Assembly (NCBI RefSeq): GCF_000021645.1
Contig: NC_011661.1
Span: 1,706,723-1,770,722 of the forward strand
Direction of reading: 5' to 3'
Source: Dictyoglomus turgidum DSM 6724
Lineage (GTDB): Bacteria > Dictyoglomota > Dictyoglomia > Dictyoglomales > Dictyoglomaceae
DNA length: 64,000 bases
Shown piece after piece: positions 20,870-51,457 of the stretch. A model generated the notes under the pieces. That model had not been told where the DNA came from. It searched no databases and saw nothing but the letters and a program-made list of their open reading frames with translations. Both the position numbers and the translations under genes were made by a program. Position 1 is the stretch's first letter. The number at the start of each line of letters is the position of its first letter.

Positions 20870-21844
20870 TTAAAGCCAGCATTGATAATCTTCAGCAAAA
20901 CTATCAGAAAATAGAGAAAAAGAGAGGGCTCTACATCCTATACAATCCTCCATGGCACATAGAAAACATTTTCCTTTCAATTTATCCTTAGTAAAATTAG
21001 CCCTAAAATCTAAAATTTTTGGGTATATTTTAGAAAAACTTTCCTGACTTAAATTACCCAAAACTAAAGGAAACCTCCTACAAGGATAAACGTCTCCATT
21101 AGGCATAACTGCACAAGATTCACCTAAATTGCAAAGAGCTCCTAAGATTCTATTCTCTTCAAAATCAATATAAAAAGCCTTATAAGGAAGCAGATCTTCT
21201 ACAGTAAGATCAGCCCAAGTAGCTACCCTATCCACTACCTGGTACCAATCCTTTGAATTTAATACCATATCTTTGATTTTTGACCCTTCTCCAAGAGGTA
21301 TAAACCTCTCCAAGATAAATCCCTTTGCACCTAAATTCTGAGATAATCTATACATATCATCTAACTCTCTATAATTGTATTTTGCAAGAGTAAACATTAA
21401 AAGAAAATTATAATTAGTATTTTTAAGATTACCAATAACCCTTTTAAAAATCCCCCTACCCCTTATCAAATCATTAGTCTCTTCCCTTGCTCCTTCCAGA
21501 GAAACCTTTAAGTATTTTAATCTTTCATAACGCCCTTTGAGCACAATATCGGGCATTATTATGCCATTAGTTATAATATTTATCTCGTCTATAATATCTA
21601 TTTCGTCTAATGCTTTTAAAATAGGATTAATATAGGGATAAATTAGAGGCTCACCTCCAGTAATATTTATGGAAAGTCTTTCAAACCCTTGCTCTTTTAA
21701 AAACCCTGATATATCTTGAATAATATGGATTAACCTATCATAAGTAAGCTCTCTACTTCTATCAAAAATATCTTGATAGCAGTGCTTGCATCTCAGATTA
21801 CAAAAGTCCGTTATATGCCATTGAAAGGAAAACTCTTTTCCCAT
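20870..21844 (-). CDS. radical SAM/SPASM-type protein of unknown substrate
   Basis: 324 residues. The radical SAM motif CNLRCKHCY is at residues 15-23, followed by NITGGEPLIYP. The C-terminus holds a SPASM/twitch-like Cys set: CNLGESCAVMPNGDVYPC and then CFLCAMEDCIGC, likely ligating one or two auxiliary Fe-S clusters. Relatives mature peptides or enzymes, but no substrate can be named. GAGGG precedes the ATG. It is divergent from a gene for a small Cys-rich protein 47 bases away, sharing the short promoter region. Confidence 0.85.
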   Translation of the reverse strand: MGKEFSFQWHITDFCNLRCKHCYQDIFDRSRELTYDRLIHIIQDISGFLKEQGFERLSINITGGEPLIYPYINPILKALDEIDIIDEINIITNGIIMPDIVLKGRYERLKYLKVSLEGAREETNDLIRGRGIFKRVIGNLKNTNYNFLLMFTLAKYNYRELDDMYRLSQNLGAKGFILERFIPLGEGSKIKDMVLNSKDWYQVVDRVATWADLTVEDLLPYKAFYIDFEENRILGALCNLGESCAVMPNGDVYPCRRFPLVLGNLSQESFSKIYPKILDFRANFTKDKLKGKCFLCAMEDCIGCRALSFSLFSDSFAEDYQCWL

Positions 21845-23125: not shown

Positions 23126-24175
23126 CTAAAATTTAAAACTTCTTGATGTGTCAATCATAGCTCTTATATTTTCGCCAGGGGTTCCAGGAGATACACCACC
23201 CCCAGCAGAAAGAAGTAATCCCTTCTTCATTCCATAATCCATTAGTATCTTTTCTACAACTCTTTTCACATCCTCTTTGCTCCCATTAACAAGAACATCC
23301 AAGGGAGGTACATTTCCCATTAAGCACATCTTTCCTTGGGTTAAATTATAAACATCTTTTATATTTTGGAGATGAGTAAAGTTAAATATGTTGATACCAA
23401 GTTCTGGTAAATATTTGTAATAAACATTGTTATTAGTATCATTATGATAAATCTTTACTGGATAATCAAAGCTTGAAAATATCTTTTTAAGATAAGGATG
23501 TGCAAACTCAAGATAATCTTCCTCCGAGAAAAAGCCTACAATATCATCAAGTACAAGGATACCTTCCACATCATGGAGGACTTCTATTTGAGCAGTAAGA
23601 AAATCAATTACCAAATTTGTTGCAATTTCAATAAGTCTCTTTGCTTCCTCAGGATATAACTTCACCGAGACTAAGAACTCGGTAACTCCCATTAAATGAG
23701 AGGAAATAGCAAGAGGACCTCTTGCAGCAACGATTTTTATCTTTTCTCCCATCCCTTTTACTTTAGGCTCAATATATTTATAGTACTCAAGAACAATAGG
23801 CATAAATCCATCAGTCTTAGGATTTGGAGTTTTTAACCTAGCAATAAAAGTAGGAAGATCGTCAGCAGAACTTAATATAGGTTCTATATTAGGAGTAGCA
23901 TTAGGCTTAAAGACAATTTTAGCTCCAAAAGCAGAAGGTTCTTGAGCCATTCCAAACTCGACCCAGAAATCGGGAATAAAAATAACTTCAGGAAATCTCC
24001 TTTTGATCTCTTTGTAGGCTTCAAGCCATACATCAGGAATAAAATAAAATTGCATGTGAGGAATTCCTAAATATCCAGGAATCCAAGGACTATCCACAAT
24101 AAGAGCAATAGGAATCTCCTCAGGTTCTTTCATATTTACACAATCCAACAAAATCTGCCACTCTTTATCTTTCAT
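23126..24175 (-). CDS. URO-D-superfamily protein linked to alpha-glucuronidase
   Basis: 349 residues. It reads along its length as a uroporphyrinogen decarboxylase-superfamily TIM barrel: PEEIPIALIVDSPW, ARGPLAISSHLMG, YHNDTNNN, CLMGNVPPLDVLVNGS, AGGGVSPGTPGEN. It is not HemE, since the Asp/Arg porphyrin motifs are absent. In corrinoid methyltransferases of this superfamily the zinc site is His-x-Cys plus a later Cys; here these positions are H244-N-D246 and Gly325/326. A thiol zinc site is therefore missing and the chemistry is unknown. It lies 17 bases downstream of the GH67 gene in the same unit, so a role in handling (4-O-methyl)glucuronate is an inference from context only. GGAGGAGG precedes the ATG. 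Confidence 0.75.
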   Translation of the reverse strand: MKDKEWQILLDCVNMKEPEEIPIALIVDSPWIPGYLGIPHMQFYFIPDVWLEAYKEIKRRFPEVIFIPDFWVEFGMAQEPSAFGAKIVFKPNATPNIEPILSSADDLPTFIARLKTPNPKTDGFMPIVLEYYKYIEPKVKGMGEKIKIVAARGPLAISSHLMGVTEFLVSVKLYPEEAKRLIEIATNLVIDFLTAQIEVLHDVEGILVLDDIVGFFSEEDYLEFAHPYLKKIFSSFDYPVKIYHNDTNNNVYYKYLPELGINIFNFTHLQNIKDVYNLTQGKMCLMGNVPPLDVLVNGSKEDVKRVVEKILMDYGMKKGLLLSAGGGVSPGTPGENIRAMIDTSRSFKF

Positions 24176-24192: not shown

Positions 24193-26250
24193 TTAAGGAT
24201 ATATTTTTCTACCTTTTTCATCTGGTATTCCCGTTCTCCTAAAGAAATACGTATTTATAACATCTCTCCATTCTTTCGCATGCTCTATCTGTATATCCAA
24301 CCTATTTAAAACCCTTTCATATATCTTATCCTCAATCTCGCCCTTTAACTCAATCCATTTTTTTCTAATCTCCTCTGCCTCCTCTACCCCTTCAAAATGC
24401 AAATCGTAATAAGTCTGAATTAGAGTTTTTCCCGACTTTAATTTGTAATTGTAAGGTACCCTATGAAAGAACAATAACAATTCTTCAGGACACGTCTCTA
24501 TATTATCGTAAATTTCTCTCCAAGGAGAGTGATACTGAAGAGTATAGCCTGTACCTCTTGAAGATCTATCCACTCCTATCGCCTCGTAATTTGCTCTATG
24601 ATAAGTACCCCATTTAGAATATTCGTACCCTTCTGGGTTAGGTCCATAATGATGACCTGGATTTACCATCCATCCCAATCCTAAAGGAGTAGTATATTTC
24701 TCATAAGCCTTATGAGAGCTTAATAACATATAAGAAATATTTTTAATTACCTTCTCATTATCTCCGAAAGTCAATTCTATCCATCTTTTTACAACTTCTT
24801 CTATCCTCTCATCAGGATTCCAGCTAAGAGCTCCAAAGGTATATAAATTAGCCTGAGCCAAATCATGTCCTGTCCAATTGATATCATCCCCCACATTAGA
24901 TACCCCCGCCATACCGTTATTTTTCAAATCAAAAACATTTCCCTTTAATATCTCCTTTACCTTAGATCCCTCCCCTTTTGCATAAGTATCAAAATCAAGA
25001 ACTTCTTTCCACAAAGTACCCAAATAACATAAATGTATTTGCTGTCCTGTATACTCTTGAGTTATTTGTAGCTCCAATATCTGATTTGTATGTTCTAATC
25101 CTCCGAAGAGAGGATTAACAGGCTCCCTAACCTGAAAGTCCATAGGACCATATTTTATCTGCACTATAACATTTTCACTAAATTTACCATCAAGAGGCTT
25201 AAAGTTCTCATAAGCAGCCTTTGCCCTATCCGTATTAGTATCTCTCCAATCTTGTAAACAATTGTAAACAAAAGCTCTCCATATTACAAATCCTCCATAA
25301 GACTCTAAGGCTTCTCCCAACATATTAGCCCCATCAGCATGAGTCCTGCCATACATATGAGGTCCTGGATTAAACTCAGAATCTGCTTTTACCAAAAAGC
25401 CTCCAAAATCTGGAACATACTCATATATTTCGTCTACTTTTGCCTTCCACCAAACTGCTACCCTTTTATCAAGAGGATCAGCAGTATTTAAACCACCAAG
25501 ATATATGGGAGAGGCAAAGTTTATAGAGAGGTAAATTTTAATCCCATAAGCTGAAAAAATTTTAGAAAGCTCTCCTATTTTTTTTAAATAAGAAGGTGTT
25601 ATAAGCTCTACTTCCTTTTTCTTTACATTTACATTATTAATCACTACCCCATTAACTCCTATAGAGGATAGCAATCTTGCATAATCCTTAGTTCTTTCAT
25701 TAATAAGTATCTTATTCTCCCTAAAAAATATAGATTTCCCTGCATATCCTCTTTCTATACTCCCATCTAAATTATCCCAATGATTTAACATTCTAAACCT
25801 TAGAGAGGGATTGCTTACAATGTCTATATTTTCTATATCTTCTCCCCGTTTTAACCTTTCAATCAAATTAAATATCCCATAAACAATACCATTATAGCTT
25901 TTTGCTGTAATTATCAAAACCTTGTTTCCATCAATGTCTATTCTCTTTATTATAAAACCCTCATCATTTAACAATTTTTCAAATCTTTCACTCTCTTTGA
26001 AAATTTTCTTAATTTCTATTAACCTCCCAATTAACACATAATTTCGGCCTTTTACAAGAGTATTTTTAAAAATTTTAGGTTTAATATTTAAAGAGAAGGT
26101 GAGAAAATTTTTTAATTCTTTCAAGGGTAAATTTAATTCATTGCCTCCTAAGACTACAACATTTTCAAACACTTTAATATACTTGTTTTTATACTTACTA
26201 AGATCTGTATACTCTAACCAACACATATTATAAGGTTTAACTTCAGCCAT
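24193..26250 (-). CDS. aguA: alpha-glucuronidase, GH67
   Basis: 685 residues, the usual GH67 length, with no signal peptide, so cytoplasmic. It removes (4-O-methyl)glucuronic acid from the non-reducing end of aldouronic oligosaccharides made by xylanase. The GH67 block [20 protein letters not shown] is present. The expected catalytic residues line up: general acid E292 (in KADSE), and D371 (PMDFQVREP) and E399 (QITQEYTG) as the basic pair; spacing between them equals that of well-studied family members. GGAGG precedes the ATG. A terminator hairpin separates it from the xylanase gene upstream, so it is a second, weaker segment or has its own promoter in that gap. Confidence 0.95.
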
Positions 26251-26283: not shown

Positions 26284-26315
26284 AAAACCCCTGGGATATT
26301 TTTCCCAGGGGTTTT
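26284..26315. terminator. hairpin between xylanase and alpha-glucuronidase genes
   Basis: Perfect 13-bp stem AAAACCCCTGGGA / TCCCAGGGGTTTT (26284-26296 with 26303-26315), loop TATTTT. In the - direction the stem ends in TTTT and is followed by CACATTTTT, enough for at least partial termination after the xylanase gene. Confidence 0.8.
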
Positions 26316-26317
26316 TC

Positions 26318-29300
26318 TTACTGTATCAATTCAAGATTTCCAAACCTTCTTGTATCTCTCCAATTATCTCCCACTGGATCATTCCATGTGTAGATTCCTA
26401 TCCTCATCCCCTTTGAAGCATTGTTCACCTGTATATCAAATCCTATTACTTCTCCCACCTTAAGTCTTTTTGTTTTCATCTTTATTGCTACTTCTACAGC
26501 ATAGCCTATAACTTTTTCTCCATCCCTTAGTAACCTTGTAGCAGAGTTTATATACTCAGCATTGGCTCCAGTACCAAAAGTTTGTACATTCTTAAAATTA
26601 ACTCTATATTGGGCATCATCTGCCTGATAACTTGCAGTCTTTGCATTATTCTCATCTATAAAGATCTCAAAAGAATCCTGTTCCCACGGATTTGTTGCTG
26701 TATCATCAAGATCATCATCGCTTACTTCTGCGTATAAATATATATGATCCTCATCCCACAATATCCAAGCTTTGCCCTTTACTTTCTCTATTTTACCCAT
26801 TACTGCAGTTTCTGTTTCTATGGGATCAACACTCTTATAGAGGTCATCCATAAGGGCATCAACTACAGGGCTTCCTTTCTTAGCTTGGGCCAACTTAACT
26901 GCTTCTTCAAGTTCTAAGGTACCATACCTTATAGTGCTTAACAACTGCTGATTAGAGTGATCACTCCAACTTACAACCTTTTCTCCATCTATCATTGAAA
27001 AGTCCATTCCTATTTTACTCCCTTTTCCTATTGGAATAGCATATATCTGGATTTCGCATTCAATTGTATATCCTGTTTCTTTTTCTCTTATCGTATAATT
27101 CTTTAACATGGGAGCAAAATTACTTTCTATTTTTCCATTTCTATAGAACTTAAAATATACATCATCACTTTGAAGATATGGGGATTTTGCATTGTTTTGG
27201 TCCACAAACACAGTTAAACAATCTGTATCATCTTTTCTTCCATCAAATACCTCTGCAAAAACAAATATCTTACTCATATACCATATAGGTTTAACCACAG
27301 CTACATCTCTTTCTCCATCATTTATAATTACTGGTATAGCAGATTTATAGCTTTTATCTTCTATCCCATCCACCACAGCCTGTCCACTTGCCATCTTAGC
27401 ACTTTGAATAAGAGGAGGCAAAACATTAGGAGACACCAAAGCCCAATAAGCCAATTTTGCCTGATAATCTTTATCAAACAATAGAGGATAATTGAATCTT
27501 CCCCTCTGATTTAACCAAGAATAATCGTCTTTTAATCCCCAAAAGGTTACATTAGTCACTACGTTTTTATATTTTTTAAGCATATCGAATAACTTTCTAT
27601 ACCTATACCCTTGTCTTACAGCCACATCTCTTGGCAGAGTTTTATACTCTTCTCCAGCCTGGGTATAGACACTCATATCAAGCTCTGTAATATGAATTTC
27701 TATTCCTGGAATAGTACTAAACAGTTTTATGGTATTTTCTATCTCCTCAATCTCTGGCCAAGAGATATTTATGTGACATTGTAATCCAACCCCATGAATC
27801 GGAACACCTTTTTCTTTAAGAGATTTCACGAGTTTATATATAAATTCCCTCTTAGCAGGAATCTCAGTATTATAATCATTATAGAAAAGCTTTGCATTTG
27901 GATCTGCTTCATGAGCCCATATGAAGGCTTTCTCTATATATTCGGGACCTAATATTTCAAACCACTTACTTCTTCTAAAACCATCAGGTTGAGCTTCATC
28001 TATAGCTTCATTTACCACATCCCAAGCATAAACCCTTCCCTTGTATCTTCCCACCACTGTTTTAATATGATTTTCCAATCTCTTTAAGAGTAATTCCTTA
28101 GAAGCAGGTTTTCCGTCTTTATCTACGAAGAACCAATTAGGAGTCTGACTATGCCATACAAGAGTGTGTCCTCTCACTACCAAACCATTTTCTTCGGCAA
28201 ACTTTACATAAGCATCTGCTTTACTAAAATCAAACTCTCCTTCCCTTGGTTGAAGAGATTCTGGCTTCATTTCGTTTTCCGAAGTAATGCTATTAAAATG
28301 TTTAACCACCATTTTAGCCTCAACAGGATTTATCAAAACTTTAAAAGGAATAGCAACTCCAATTTTAAAATACCCTTTGAACATCTCAGCTAAGGATGGG
28401 ATTTCCCATTCTGGTTGACCCAAAACTAAGGTCCTATCGGTTACCTTAACATCATCCACATAGAATTCTAAATTGGTATTAGGAGATTCCACATAAAGTA
28501 TTAACTCTTCAATCTTTACATTGAGTGGAACATTGTAGGATCCTGAAAGCTCAACCCAAGTCTTATCTGGAATACTCTTTTGCCAGACTATGGTTTCATA
28601 TCTTGTTTTCTCATCTATGTCAAATTTCCTCTGCATTGTAAGAGTTATTTTTTGAGTTTCACCAGAACTTTGATACACCCAAACTGATATATCATAGCTC
28701 TTTCCCGTTTCTAAAATTTTTGAAAGATTTATTTGAGCACCATGCCAACTTCTTGTTCTTCCCGTTACAAAAAGAGAGTACTTTCCAGTTTTGGCTACAT
28801 TATCCCTAACTAAGATTTTTACCCCATCTCCTCTTGCTTCCCAATTTTCCACAGTACCACTTTCAAAAGTTGAGTTAACCACAGATCCTGGGGAAGAAAC
28901 TTTATTAGGACCCAATACTTGTATCTTATCCACATAAAAATCAAATCCAGATTCATTAGGAGATACAATCATTAAATCTAATGCCTCTAAATAAACAGAA
29001 TAATTAAACTTAAAATTTCCTTTTATCTCCTTCCATACCTTAGGCATTGCTATGGTTTCCCCAATAAGTTCAAATCTTTCACCTACAATATCTTTAATAC
29101 GAGCAACAATTTGAAAAGGCTGAGGTTTATCAGAAGTATGGTATACAAAAGCACTTACTAAATAATTCATCTCAGGTAATAAATTATAAGTCAAGCTTAC
29201 CCTACATCCGTCCCAAGAAGAGAGTCTATTATGTACCTTTAATGCATATTTCCCATCTAAGACTACATCTTCTACAATACTTAGTTTTACCCTCTCACTG

Positions 29301-29431
29301 GTCCCCAGGAATCCCTCTTCTGAACCATTTTCAAAACTAAAATATAAAGTAAGATCTTCAGAACCAATGGTTATAGAGAGGATTAGTAGGAATGTAATCA
29401 AAAATAGAAGAGAGAATCTCTTTTTAAGCAT
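26318..29431 (-). CDS. secreted modular endo-1,4-beta-xylanase CBM22-CBM22-GH10-CBM9-CBM9
   Basis: 1037 residues. The order is: signal peptide (1-24); CBM22 (about 26-175); second CBM22 (about 180-332, [20 protein letters not shown]); GH10 catalytic barrel (about 335-675); then two CBM9-type modules (about 685-855 and 858-1037; both with YQxDDxxxR/F-type strands such as [11 protein letters not shown] and [10 protein letters not shown]). GH10 catalytic residues: acid/base E475 ([10 protein letters not shown]) and nucleophile E583 (IHITELDMS); the WHSQTPNWF substrate motif is present. This layout matches large thermophile xylanases such as those of Thermotoga. It cuts xylan outside the cell. 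No S-layer (SLH) domain or sortase signal is present. I chose ATG 29431, after GGGGGG, over an earlier in-frame start at 29452. Confidence 0.95.
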
Positions 29432-29466
29432 TATTATCCCCCCATCTCTCAAAGTATTCGTTAAAT

Positions 29467-29503
29467 ATTATAAAGGATAAAAATCGTTTATACAAATGTT
29501 TTT
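29467..29503 (-). promoter_or_regulatory. xylanase promoter with overlapping operator-like dyad
   Basis: On the - strand: -35 TTGTAT (plus 29495-29490), 17-base spacer, -10 TATAAT (plus 29472-29467). The stretch AAAAATCG...ATGTTTTT (29479-29503) covers the -35 and spacer. Its half-sites (AAAAC, TTGTATA, CGATTTTT) match those before binding-protein gene 2 and the oppB-type operon. Confidence 0.65.
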
Positions 29504-49951: not shown

Positions 49952-51442
49952 TTATGAAATAAAAGGATTTTCCTCTGGATATCTCTGATTCTCAGGCAAG
50001 TTATAGTATATCTCCTTTATTCCTAAAAGCTTTAGTACTTCATATACGTACTTACCTACATGCTTAAAGCCAACCGCTGTATGATGCGGGAATTTCTTTT
50101 CTAATAGTACATACCTATAAAATCTCCCCATTTCTTTTATTGCAAAAACACCAATTCCTCCAAAAGATTTAGGATCAATATCTAAAATCTCACCTTCTGC
50201 CAAATAAGATATCAATCTTGCATCAGGTGTTGCATGAATTCTAAAAATAAGAGTTTCACCAGGTCTTAGTCTTCCTTCCAAGGTTCCTCTTGTAATATCG
50301 GGCTCTTTTCCAGGTTCTAAAAGTCTATGCATAATCAATTGATATTTAATAGCTCCATTAATAAGGCAACAAGATGGCGTATTTCCACAATGGAAACCCA
50401 TAAAAAGATCCGTTGGCTTATACCCCTTATCTCTTATTCGGTCCTTATTTTCCTCTATCAGATCATATGGCACAGTGTTATTAACATCAAGAAGAGTTGC
50501 TGGCAATTCACTTACATTGTAAATAATATATTCACTAAGTGCTCCATAAACATCTACCTCGCAAGCCACAGGAATCCCTCTACTTGCAAGTCTTGAATTC
50601 ACATAACAAGGAACAAAGCCAAAATATTTTTCAAAGGCAGGCCAACATTTATTGGCAAATATACCAAATTGGGAAGCTCCAAGATTTTTTTCCATAAAGT
50701 CAATTAAAGCTACTTCATATTGTGCAAGCTTTCTTAAAAGTTCTGGATAAGTATTACCTGTTCCAAGCTCTTTTGCCATGTCTTCCATAACCTCTGATAT
50801 CCGTGGATCATTTTCAGCTTGTTTGTATATATCGTAAAGATCTAATTCACTATTTTCCATTATGGAGATCCCAAGATCATATAGTGGTTTTATAGGAGTA
50901 TGCATTGTAACAAAATCTTGAGGTCTTGGACCAAAGGAGAATATCTTCAAATTCTTCAATGCAAGAATTGTCCTTGCAATTGGCATAAATTCTTTTATCA
51001 TATCCGCTATCTCTGAAGGTATTCCTACCGGATAATGGGGTATATATACTTGCTTATTCCGCAAACCTAAATTATAACTTAAGCTTAAAAATCCACAGTA
51101 AGCATCACCTCTACCCCCATAGAGATCTTTACCAGTCTCCTCTGCAGCAGCACTTACCATAACAGGACCATCAAACTTTTGGGCAAGTAATGAAGTTGGT
51201 CCTTCAGGTCCAAAATTGCCAAGATATATTACTAAAGCATTAACTCCTTTTTCTTTTATCTCTTTTAGAGCTTTTAGAACATCGCTTTCATTCTCAATTA
51301 TGGTCTCTAAATTAATAATTGGAATATTTTTTTTAGTACATTCCTCTACAACTTTGTTTTTTCTATTTCTTGAAAGCTCAATAGGAAAACAATCTCTGCT
51401 GACCGCAATTATACCTAATTTAATATCAGGAACATTTTTCAT
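49952..51442 (-). CDS. L-fucose/arabinose isomerase-family protein
   Basis: 496 residues. It reads as the L-fucose isomerase superfamily (LGNFGPEGPTSLLAQKFDGP, AYCGFLSLSYN, CEVDVYGALSEYII, FHCGNTPSCC, HHTAVGFKHVG). Metal-site residues expected in the family are plausible at E288 region (CEVD) and the HCGN and HH motifs. It ends an operon with GH51 and araD, so in this place it most likely isomerises L-arabinose to L-ribulose, or a related sugar. Classic AraA is absent. Family members are known to act on L-fucose and D-arabinose, so biochemical preference is open. ATG 51442 is chosen (GGAGG 7 bases ahead) over GTG 51448. Confidence 0.82.
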   Translation of the reverse strand: MKNVPDIKLGIIAVSRDCFPIELSRNRKNKVVEECTKKNIPIINLETIIENESDVLKALKEIKEKGVNALVIYLGNFGPEGPTSLLAQKFDGPVMVSAAAEETGKDLYGGRGDAYCGFLSLSYNLGLRNKQVYIPHYPVGIPSEIADMIKEFMPIARTILALKNLKIFSFGPRPQDFVTMHTPIKPLYDLGISIMENSELDLYDIYKQAENDPRISEVMEDMAKELGTGNTYPELLRKLAQYEVALIDFMEKNLGASQFGIFANKCWPAFEKYFGFVPCYVNSRLASRGIPVACEVDVYGALSEYIIYNVSELPATLLDVNNTVPYDLIEENKDRIRDKGYKPTDLFMGFHCGNTPSCCLINGAIKYQLIMHRLLEPGKEPDITRGTLEGRLRPGETLIFRIHATPDARLISYLAEGEILDIDPKSFGGIGVFAIKEMGRFYRYVLLEKKFPHHTAVGFKHVGKYVYEVLKLLGIKEIYYNLPENQRYPEENPFIS

Positions 51443-51457
51443 CTTCACACCTCCTAT

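Follow-up and report, generated by a model that had tools for sequence, protein, structure and literature searches.

A URO-D-family protein encoded beside the GH67 alpha-glucuronidase of Dictyoglomus turgidum DSM 6724, here called the HND protein, is probably the methyltransferase I of a corrinoid O-demethylase that acts on the 4-O-methylglucuronate freed by GH67 or, in other lineages, by GH115. Plant xylan commonly carries 4-O-methylglucuronate side groups, and once an alpha-glucuronidase has released one of these, its methyl ether is expected to keep it out of the known route for glucuronate. How would this methyl group be removed without oxygen? No description of an enzyme for oxygen-free 4-O-methylglucuronate demethylation was found in the open-licence papers searched. 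The reading as methyltransferase I draws on the clade, the motifs, the operon structures and the gene set as seen in sequence, and we infer the substrate, the direction of transfer, the pairing with a distant operon and the metal site.

The GH67-HND locus of Dictyoglomus turgidum

The D. turgidum genome is a single contig of 1,855,560 bases, and the window is the stretch of 64,000 nucleotides analysed here, whose relevant features are collected in Table 1. The GH67 gene lies upstream of the HND gene, and the 17 nt that separate them, already pointed out in the initial annotation, agree with the coordinates of both genes. The GH67 enzyme is intracellular and has been shown experimentally to be active on xylan and xylo-oligosaccharides (PMC5167688). 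An exact sigma-70 consensus at 23120-23092 lies just beyond the HND gene and ahead of a gene for a cation-efflux protein, and its position between these two genes makes GH67-HND look like a two-gene unit.

Table 1 Features of the GH67-HND locus (window coordinates; those of the H244-N245-D246 codons were computed from the open reading frame)
Feature	Position	Strand	Remarks
HND-clade URO-D-family protein	23126..24175	minus	349 aa, ATG start; proposed methyltransferase I for 4-O-methylglucuronate
GH67 alpha-glucuronidase Dtur_1714	24193..26250	minus	three of three GH67 Pfam domains present
GH10 xylanase Dtur_1715	26318..29452	minus	CBM4_9 and CBM9 domains; upstream of GH67
Perfect 13-bp hairpin/inverted repeat	26284..26315	minus	in the GH10-GH67 gap; terminator-like, or else a processing site
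AAAATCGTTT, LacI-operator-like site	29480..29489		upstream of GH10-GH67-HND; suggestive only
H244-N245-D246 codons	23438..23446	minus	proposed metal/acid site; the same in every one of the 19 clade members
G325-G326-G327 codons	23195..23203	minus	Gly326 at the second-Cys position of MtaA-type proteins and the His position of HemE (GHG)
R152 codon	23720..23722	minus	clade-wide Arg; candidate uronate-carboxylate binder

Two other proteins of the window are recorded here as side observations. A radical SAM/SPASM protein (window 20870-21844) scores under every listed NCBIfam cut-off, and its orthologue is found near the HND gene in Dictyoglomus genomes (L001, L013). Two genes from GH51, a sugar isomerase-like protein (window 49952-51448) gives a weak sulfoquinovose isomerase match (76 of 700 bits).

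Fold, motifs and clade of the HND protein

Membership in the URO-D superfamily is indicated by both profile and fold. The Pfam URO-D model (PF01208) matches residues 73-346 with E=2.1e-42 and 145.8 bits, compared with a gathering score of 23.9, and the AF2 model is a TIM barrel with a mean pLDDT of 92.8. Matches in the PDB have TM-scores of about 0.73-0.80, such that the top score belongs to MtaA (4ay7) at 0.80, compared with 0.73-0.78 for HemE structures. Of the group VdmB, OdmB, MtvB and CdmB, only CdmB gave a match in the PDB, a weak one. None of the NCBIfam cut-offs is passed, the nearest models being of the MtaA/CmuA type (95.8 bits against a cut-off of 235.4).

The motifs set the HND protein apart from these relatives. 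H244-N-D246 occupies the position of H-x-C in MtaA-type proteins and Gly326 that of their second Cys, where the HND protein reads AGGG and MtaA (4ay7) reads PGCG; the His-Cys-Cys zinc site of MtaA/MtbA-type thiol methyltransferases is not present in the HND protein, which has H-N-D and Gly instead. This bears out the initial annotation, which had described an H-x-D motif, a Gly at the second Cys position and a missing thiol metal site. In the predicted structure D210/D211, H244/D246, N265, N288 and G325-327 would lie at or just past the C-terminal ends of the strands, where a TIM barrel has its active site. R152 is kept clade-wide, and none of the MtaA-like and HemE proteins in the comparison has it; this Arg may bind the carboxylate of the uronate.

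What does the loss of the Cys ligands imply? The initial annotation had taken it as an argument against corrinoid chemistry, a conclusion that is not supported, since His-Cys-Cys marks the S/Se-methyltransferases of the superfamily and O-methyltransferases have Asp/Glu or non-ligands in place of one or both Cys (PMC10418091). The replacement of the Cys ligands by D246 and G326 is what is seen in the methyltransferase I of O-demethylases, and it fits an oxygen substrate (PMC10418091). Judged by their described features, VdmB, OdmB, MtvB, MtoB and CdmB resemble the HND protein in having the URO-D fold without keeping the Cys ligands; these enzymes depend on a corrinoid protein that is a separate polypeptide and on a reductive activase, some using zinc and some not (PMC13222342, PMC10418091). 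They differ in that their substrates are methoxylated aromatics or haloalkanes, whereas the genes around HND point to a sugar ether. The MtaA/MtbA thiol methyltransferases and the type 1 Mlps (PMC10418091) belong to the same superfamily and provide the nearest NCBIfam models and the best PDB TM-score, but they carry H-x-C...C and fall outside the HND clade.

The clade was sought in 386 genomes sampled across bacteria, 245 genomes of one phylum, and genome and plasmid collections. The 19 members form one clade (support 100/99) separate from the MtaA-like (H-x-C...C) and HemE groups in the tree, and all of them share the HND and GGG motifs as well as EP, RGP and LDD. Because not one of the 19 departs from H, N and D, the HND motif is not due to chance. 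Three proteins (L011, L033, L034) were excluded since their HND strings lie elsewhere in the protein, their actual motif is HCD and they fall outside the clade. Together with L032 they represent related URO-D groups with H-C-D (genomes G030, G177, G315 and G352) in non-xylan settings, and are possibly O-demethylases for other substrates.

Glucuronate and corrinoid genes around clade members

An alpha-glucuronidase gene (GH67 or GH115) is adjacent to the HND gene or one gene off in 10 of the 19 members. Six Dictyoglomaceae genomes have GH67 as the neighbor, as does G060 with a 4-nt overlap between GH67 and HND, and GH115 followed by GH43 takes its place in G585, G593 and G601. G060 and the GH115-linked genomes share one phylum, which indicates that the HND gene is retained when one alpha-glucuronidase family is exchanged for another. 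Four further members lie near or adjacent to genes of glucuronate catabolism, namely UxaC in G147 and G160, UxuA with a mannonate oxidoreductase in Gemmatirosa, and such an oxidoreductase in G284. In total, 14 of 19 members have glucuronidase or glucuronate-catabolism neighbors, so the subgroup does not occur mostly away from uronic-acid genes; the proposals of the initial annotation that this is a distinct subgroup tied to such genes, and that it is linked to the handling of 4-O-methylglucuronate, are both supported. When corrinoid genes are included, 16 members have at least one link, and none of these telling neighbors was found by the HND gene in the remaining three (Marispirochaeta, G299 and G588).

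Corrinoid genes adjoin the HND gene in six genomes (G004, G005, G006, Gemmatirosa, G229 and G408). In the sister-genus genomes G005 and G006 the operon order is corrinoid protein, RACo, MtaB, GH67 and HND, with gaps of about -23 to +14 nt in G006, and in G004 a corrinoid gene adjoins GH67-HND. The HND gene of Gemmatirosa and that of G229 are directly followed by genes for a corrinoid protein, the RACo activase and a homocysteine methyltransferase, and a homocysteine methyltransferase also stands beside the corrinoid gene in G060 and G408. The corrinoid gene of G147 and G284 has a formate-tetrahydrofolate ligase beside it and MetF some 6 kb off, and no small corrinoid protein was seen in G160, whose genome is 72% complete. 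RACo occurs in 77 of 241 sampled genomes (32%), which makes its presence alone weak evidence; for this reason its co-occurrence was dropped as proof and only operon linkage was counted as strong. Such linkage to both a corrinoid protein and a reductive activase is found in G005, G006, Gemmatirosa and G229, and D. turgidum has the two only in trans.

The initial annotation had stated that no corrinoid protein is encoded nearby. This is literally true, as the five matches to B12-binding domains in the D. turgidum genome lie at 0.74-1.36 Mb and the window at 1.707-1.771 Mb, but it misleads, because a corrinoid operon exists elsewhere in the genome and genes of this kind are joined to GH67-HND in sister-genus genomes. 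Counting the missing neighbor against corrinoid chemistry is thus not supported either, carrier and activase having their genes at another locus here and within one operon in relatives. The single PF02607 corrinoid protein of D. turgidum (MtgC/MtaC-like) lies at about 742 kb, about 0.98 Mb from the HND gene, and is 66-76% identical to those in the sister-genus clusters. Its cluster (L019:5945-12949, at about 741-748 kb of the contig, G000:C1) runs from LacI through the corrinoid protein, RACo and an MtaA-like protein (HIC...C) to a methanogenesis-marker-16-like gene and two genes whose products we take to be ferredoxin-like and UPF0280-like. These last three genes are also seen in the same genus (L086, L089). 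Within the cluster the corrinoid protein is encoded at L019:7045-7683, RACo at L019:7684-9396 and the MtaA-like protein at L019:9400-10359. D. turgidum encodes only two URO-D proteins, and most simply the HND protein would serve this corrinoid protein in trans as its methyltransferase I. The MtgC/MtgD/MtgE split glycine betaine demethylase and methionine synthase, in which a modular corrinoid protein is encoded apart from the methyltransferases and methyl flows to homocysteine or folate, provides a precedent for such pairing; it differs in that its substrate methyltransferase is a pfam06253 member, not of the URO-D family, with a quaternary amine as substrate (PMC12478193).

Are the two distant loci also regulated together? 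The site AAAATCGTTT upstream of GH10-GH67-HND is similar to AAAACGTTTT, which precedes the distant corrinoid operon, and the pattern AAAA(N)CGTTT has 4 matches in the window compared with 0.49 expected, two of the four being the two strands of one palindromic site. Operator-like sites shared by GH10-GH67-HND and the corrinoid operon are suggestive only. The LacI-operator-like sites of this pattern (window 19159, 29480 and 54801; L019:7014-7023) lie upstream of a dpp-type transporter/LacI pair, GH10-GH67-HND, a LacI-GH51 gene and the distant corrinoid operon. The palindrome TTGAAAATATTATCAA, which precedes the LacI gene of the distant cluster, shows no enrichment in the window.

Alternative readings and a proposed pathway

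The HND protein might be a corrinoid methyltransferase I for another substrate, such as 4-O-methylglucuronyl oligosaccharides before GH67 acts or some other methylated uronate or sugar. Members with different surroundings, such as the one next to a sulfatase and a TRAP transporter in Marispirochaeta, would agree with this, but the repeated linkage to GH67 and GH115, whose common product is (4-O-methyl)glucuronate, and to UxaC/UxuA makes it unlikely.

An alternative hypothesis is that the HND protein is an acceptor-side methyltransferase II, or the MtaA-like partner of a methanol system (MtaB and corrinoid protein) unrelated to sugar demethylation. An MtaB homologue does lie between RACo and GH67 in the xylan operons of G006 (L014:5508-6926; PF12176, E=1.7e-169) and G005 (L016:7610-9064), so that the corrinoid protein there might serve methanol instead, and the best structural match of the model is MtaA. 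Against this, the thiol site is lost, no MtaB was found in the D. turgidum genome, a separate HIC...C protein in D. turgidum suits the acceptor role, and in other phyla the HND gene stands by an alpha-glucuronidase without MtaB. We consider this acceptor-side or methanol-system role very improbable; the MtaB of G005 and G006 may, as speculation, use methanol or, in reverse, release the sugar methyl as methanol.

It is just as hard to credit the suggestion of the initial annotation that the HND protein is a sugar-acid enzyme working without corrinoid, an isomerase or decarboxylase of glucuronate. The URO-D fold does include decarboxylases, and a UxaC-type glucuronate isomerase was not found in D. 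turgidum, in six other Dictyoglomaceae genomes or in G060, although the Dictyoglomaceae have a GH67 that is active, which means that D. turgidum needs another glucuronate enzyme. This absence also weighs against the favored reading. However, UxaC is encoded in the genomes of ten other clade members and is adjacent to the HND gene in two, which led us to reject the HND protein as a UxaC replacement, and the direct operon linkage is with a corrinoid protein and activase. Finally, uroporphyrinogen decarboxylase (HemE) activity can be dismissed, as the initial annotation had expected, since despite the shared Pfam family and the matches of profile and fold to HemE structures the protein scores 60.9 bits against a cut-off of 302.95 (TIGR01464), has Gly326 in place of the His of the C-terminal GHG motif, and is placed apart from HemE in the tree, with HemE co-occurring in G229 and G408.

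For the favored reading, methyltransferase I of a 4-O-methylglucuronate demethylase, we propose the following sequence of events. GH67 (GH115 in other lineages) would free 4-O-methyl-D-glucuronate from glucuronoxylan fragments inside the cell, and the TIM barrel of the HND protein would bind it where H244 and D246 form a metal or acid site, one that would suit an ether oxygen and not a thiol. A corrinoid protein, as a separate polypeptide, would then receive the ether methyl on its Co(I), and glucuronate would remain. The carrier in D. turgidum would be its single MtgC/MtaC-like protein, with RACo keeping the cobalt reduced. A thiol, perhaps that of homocysteine, would next receive the methyl through the MtaA-like H-x-C...C protein encoded in the corrinoid operon; the cluster may in this way make methionine from methyl-corrinoid. 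Other lineages would use other acceptors, including homocysteine methyltransferase, tetrahydrofolate/formate genes and possibly MtaB. With less assurance, we lean towards a widespread pathway in which a dedicated corrinoid methyltransferase removes the 4-O-methyl group of xylan without oxygen and a paired acceptor enzyme directs the methyl to methionine, formate or methanol.

If this model is true, a corrinoid sugar-ether demethylase would fill the missing step of anaerobic 4-O-methylglucuronate demethylation, and corrinoid O-demethylation would extend from aromatics to sugars. A group of genes now annotated as 'uroporphyrinogen decarboxylase' would also gain a function, and in anaerobes the breakdown of wood would be connected to one-carbon metabolism.
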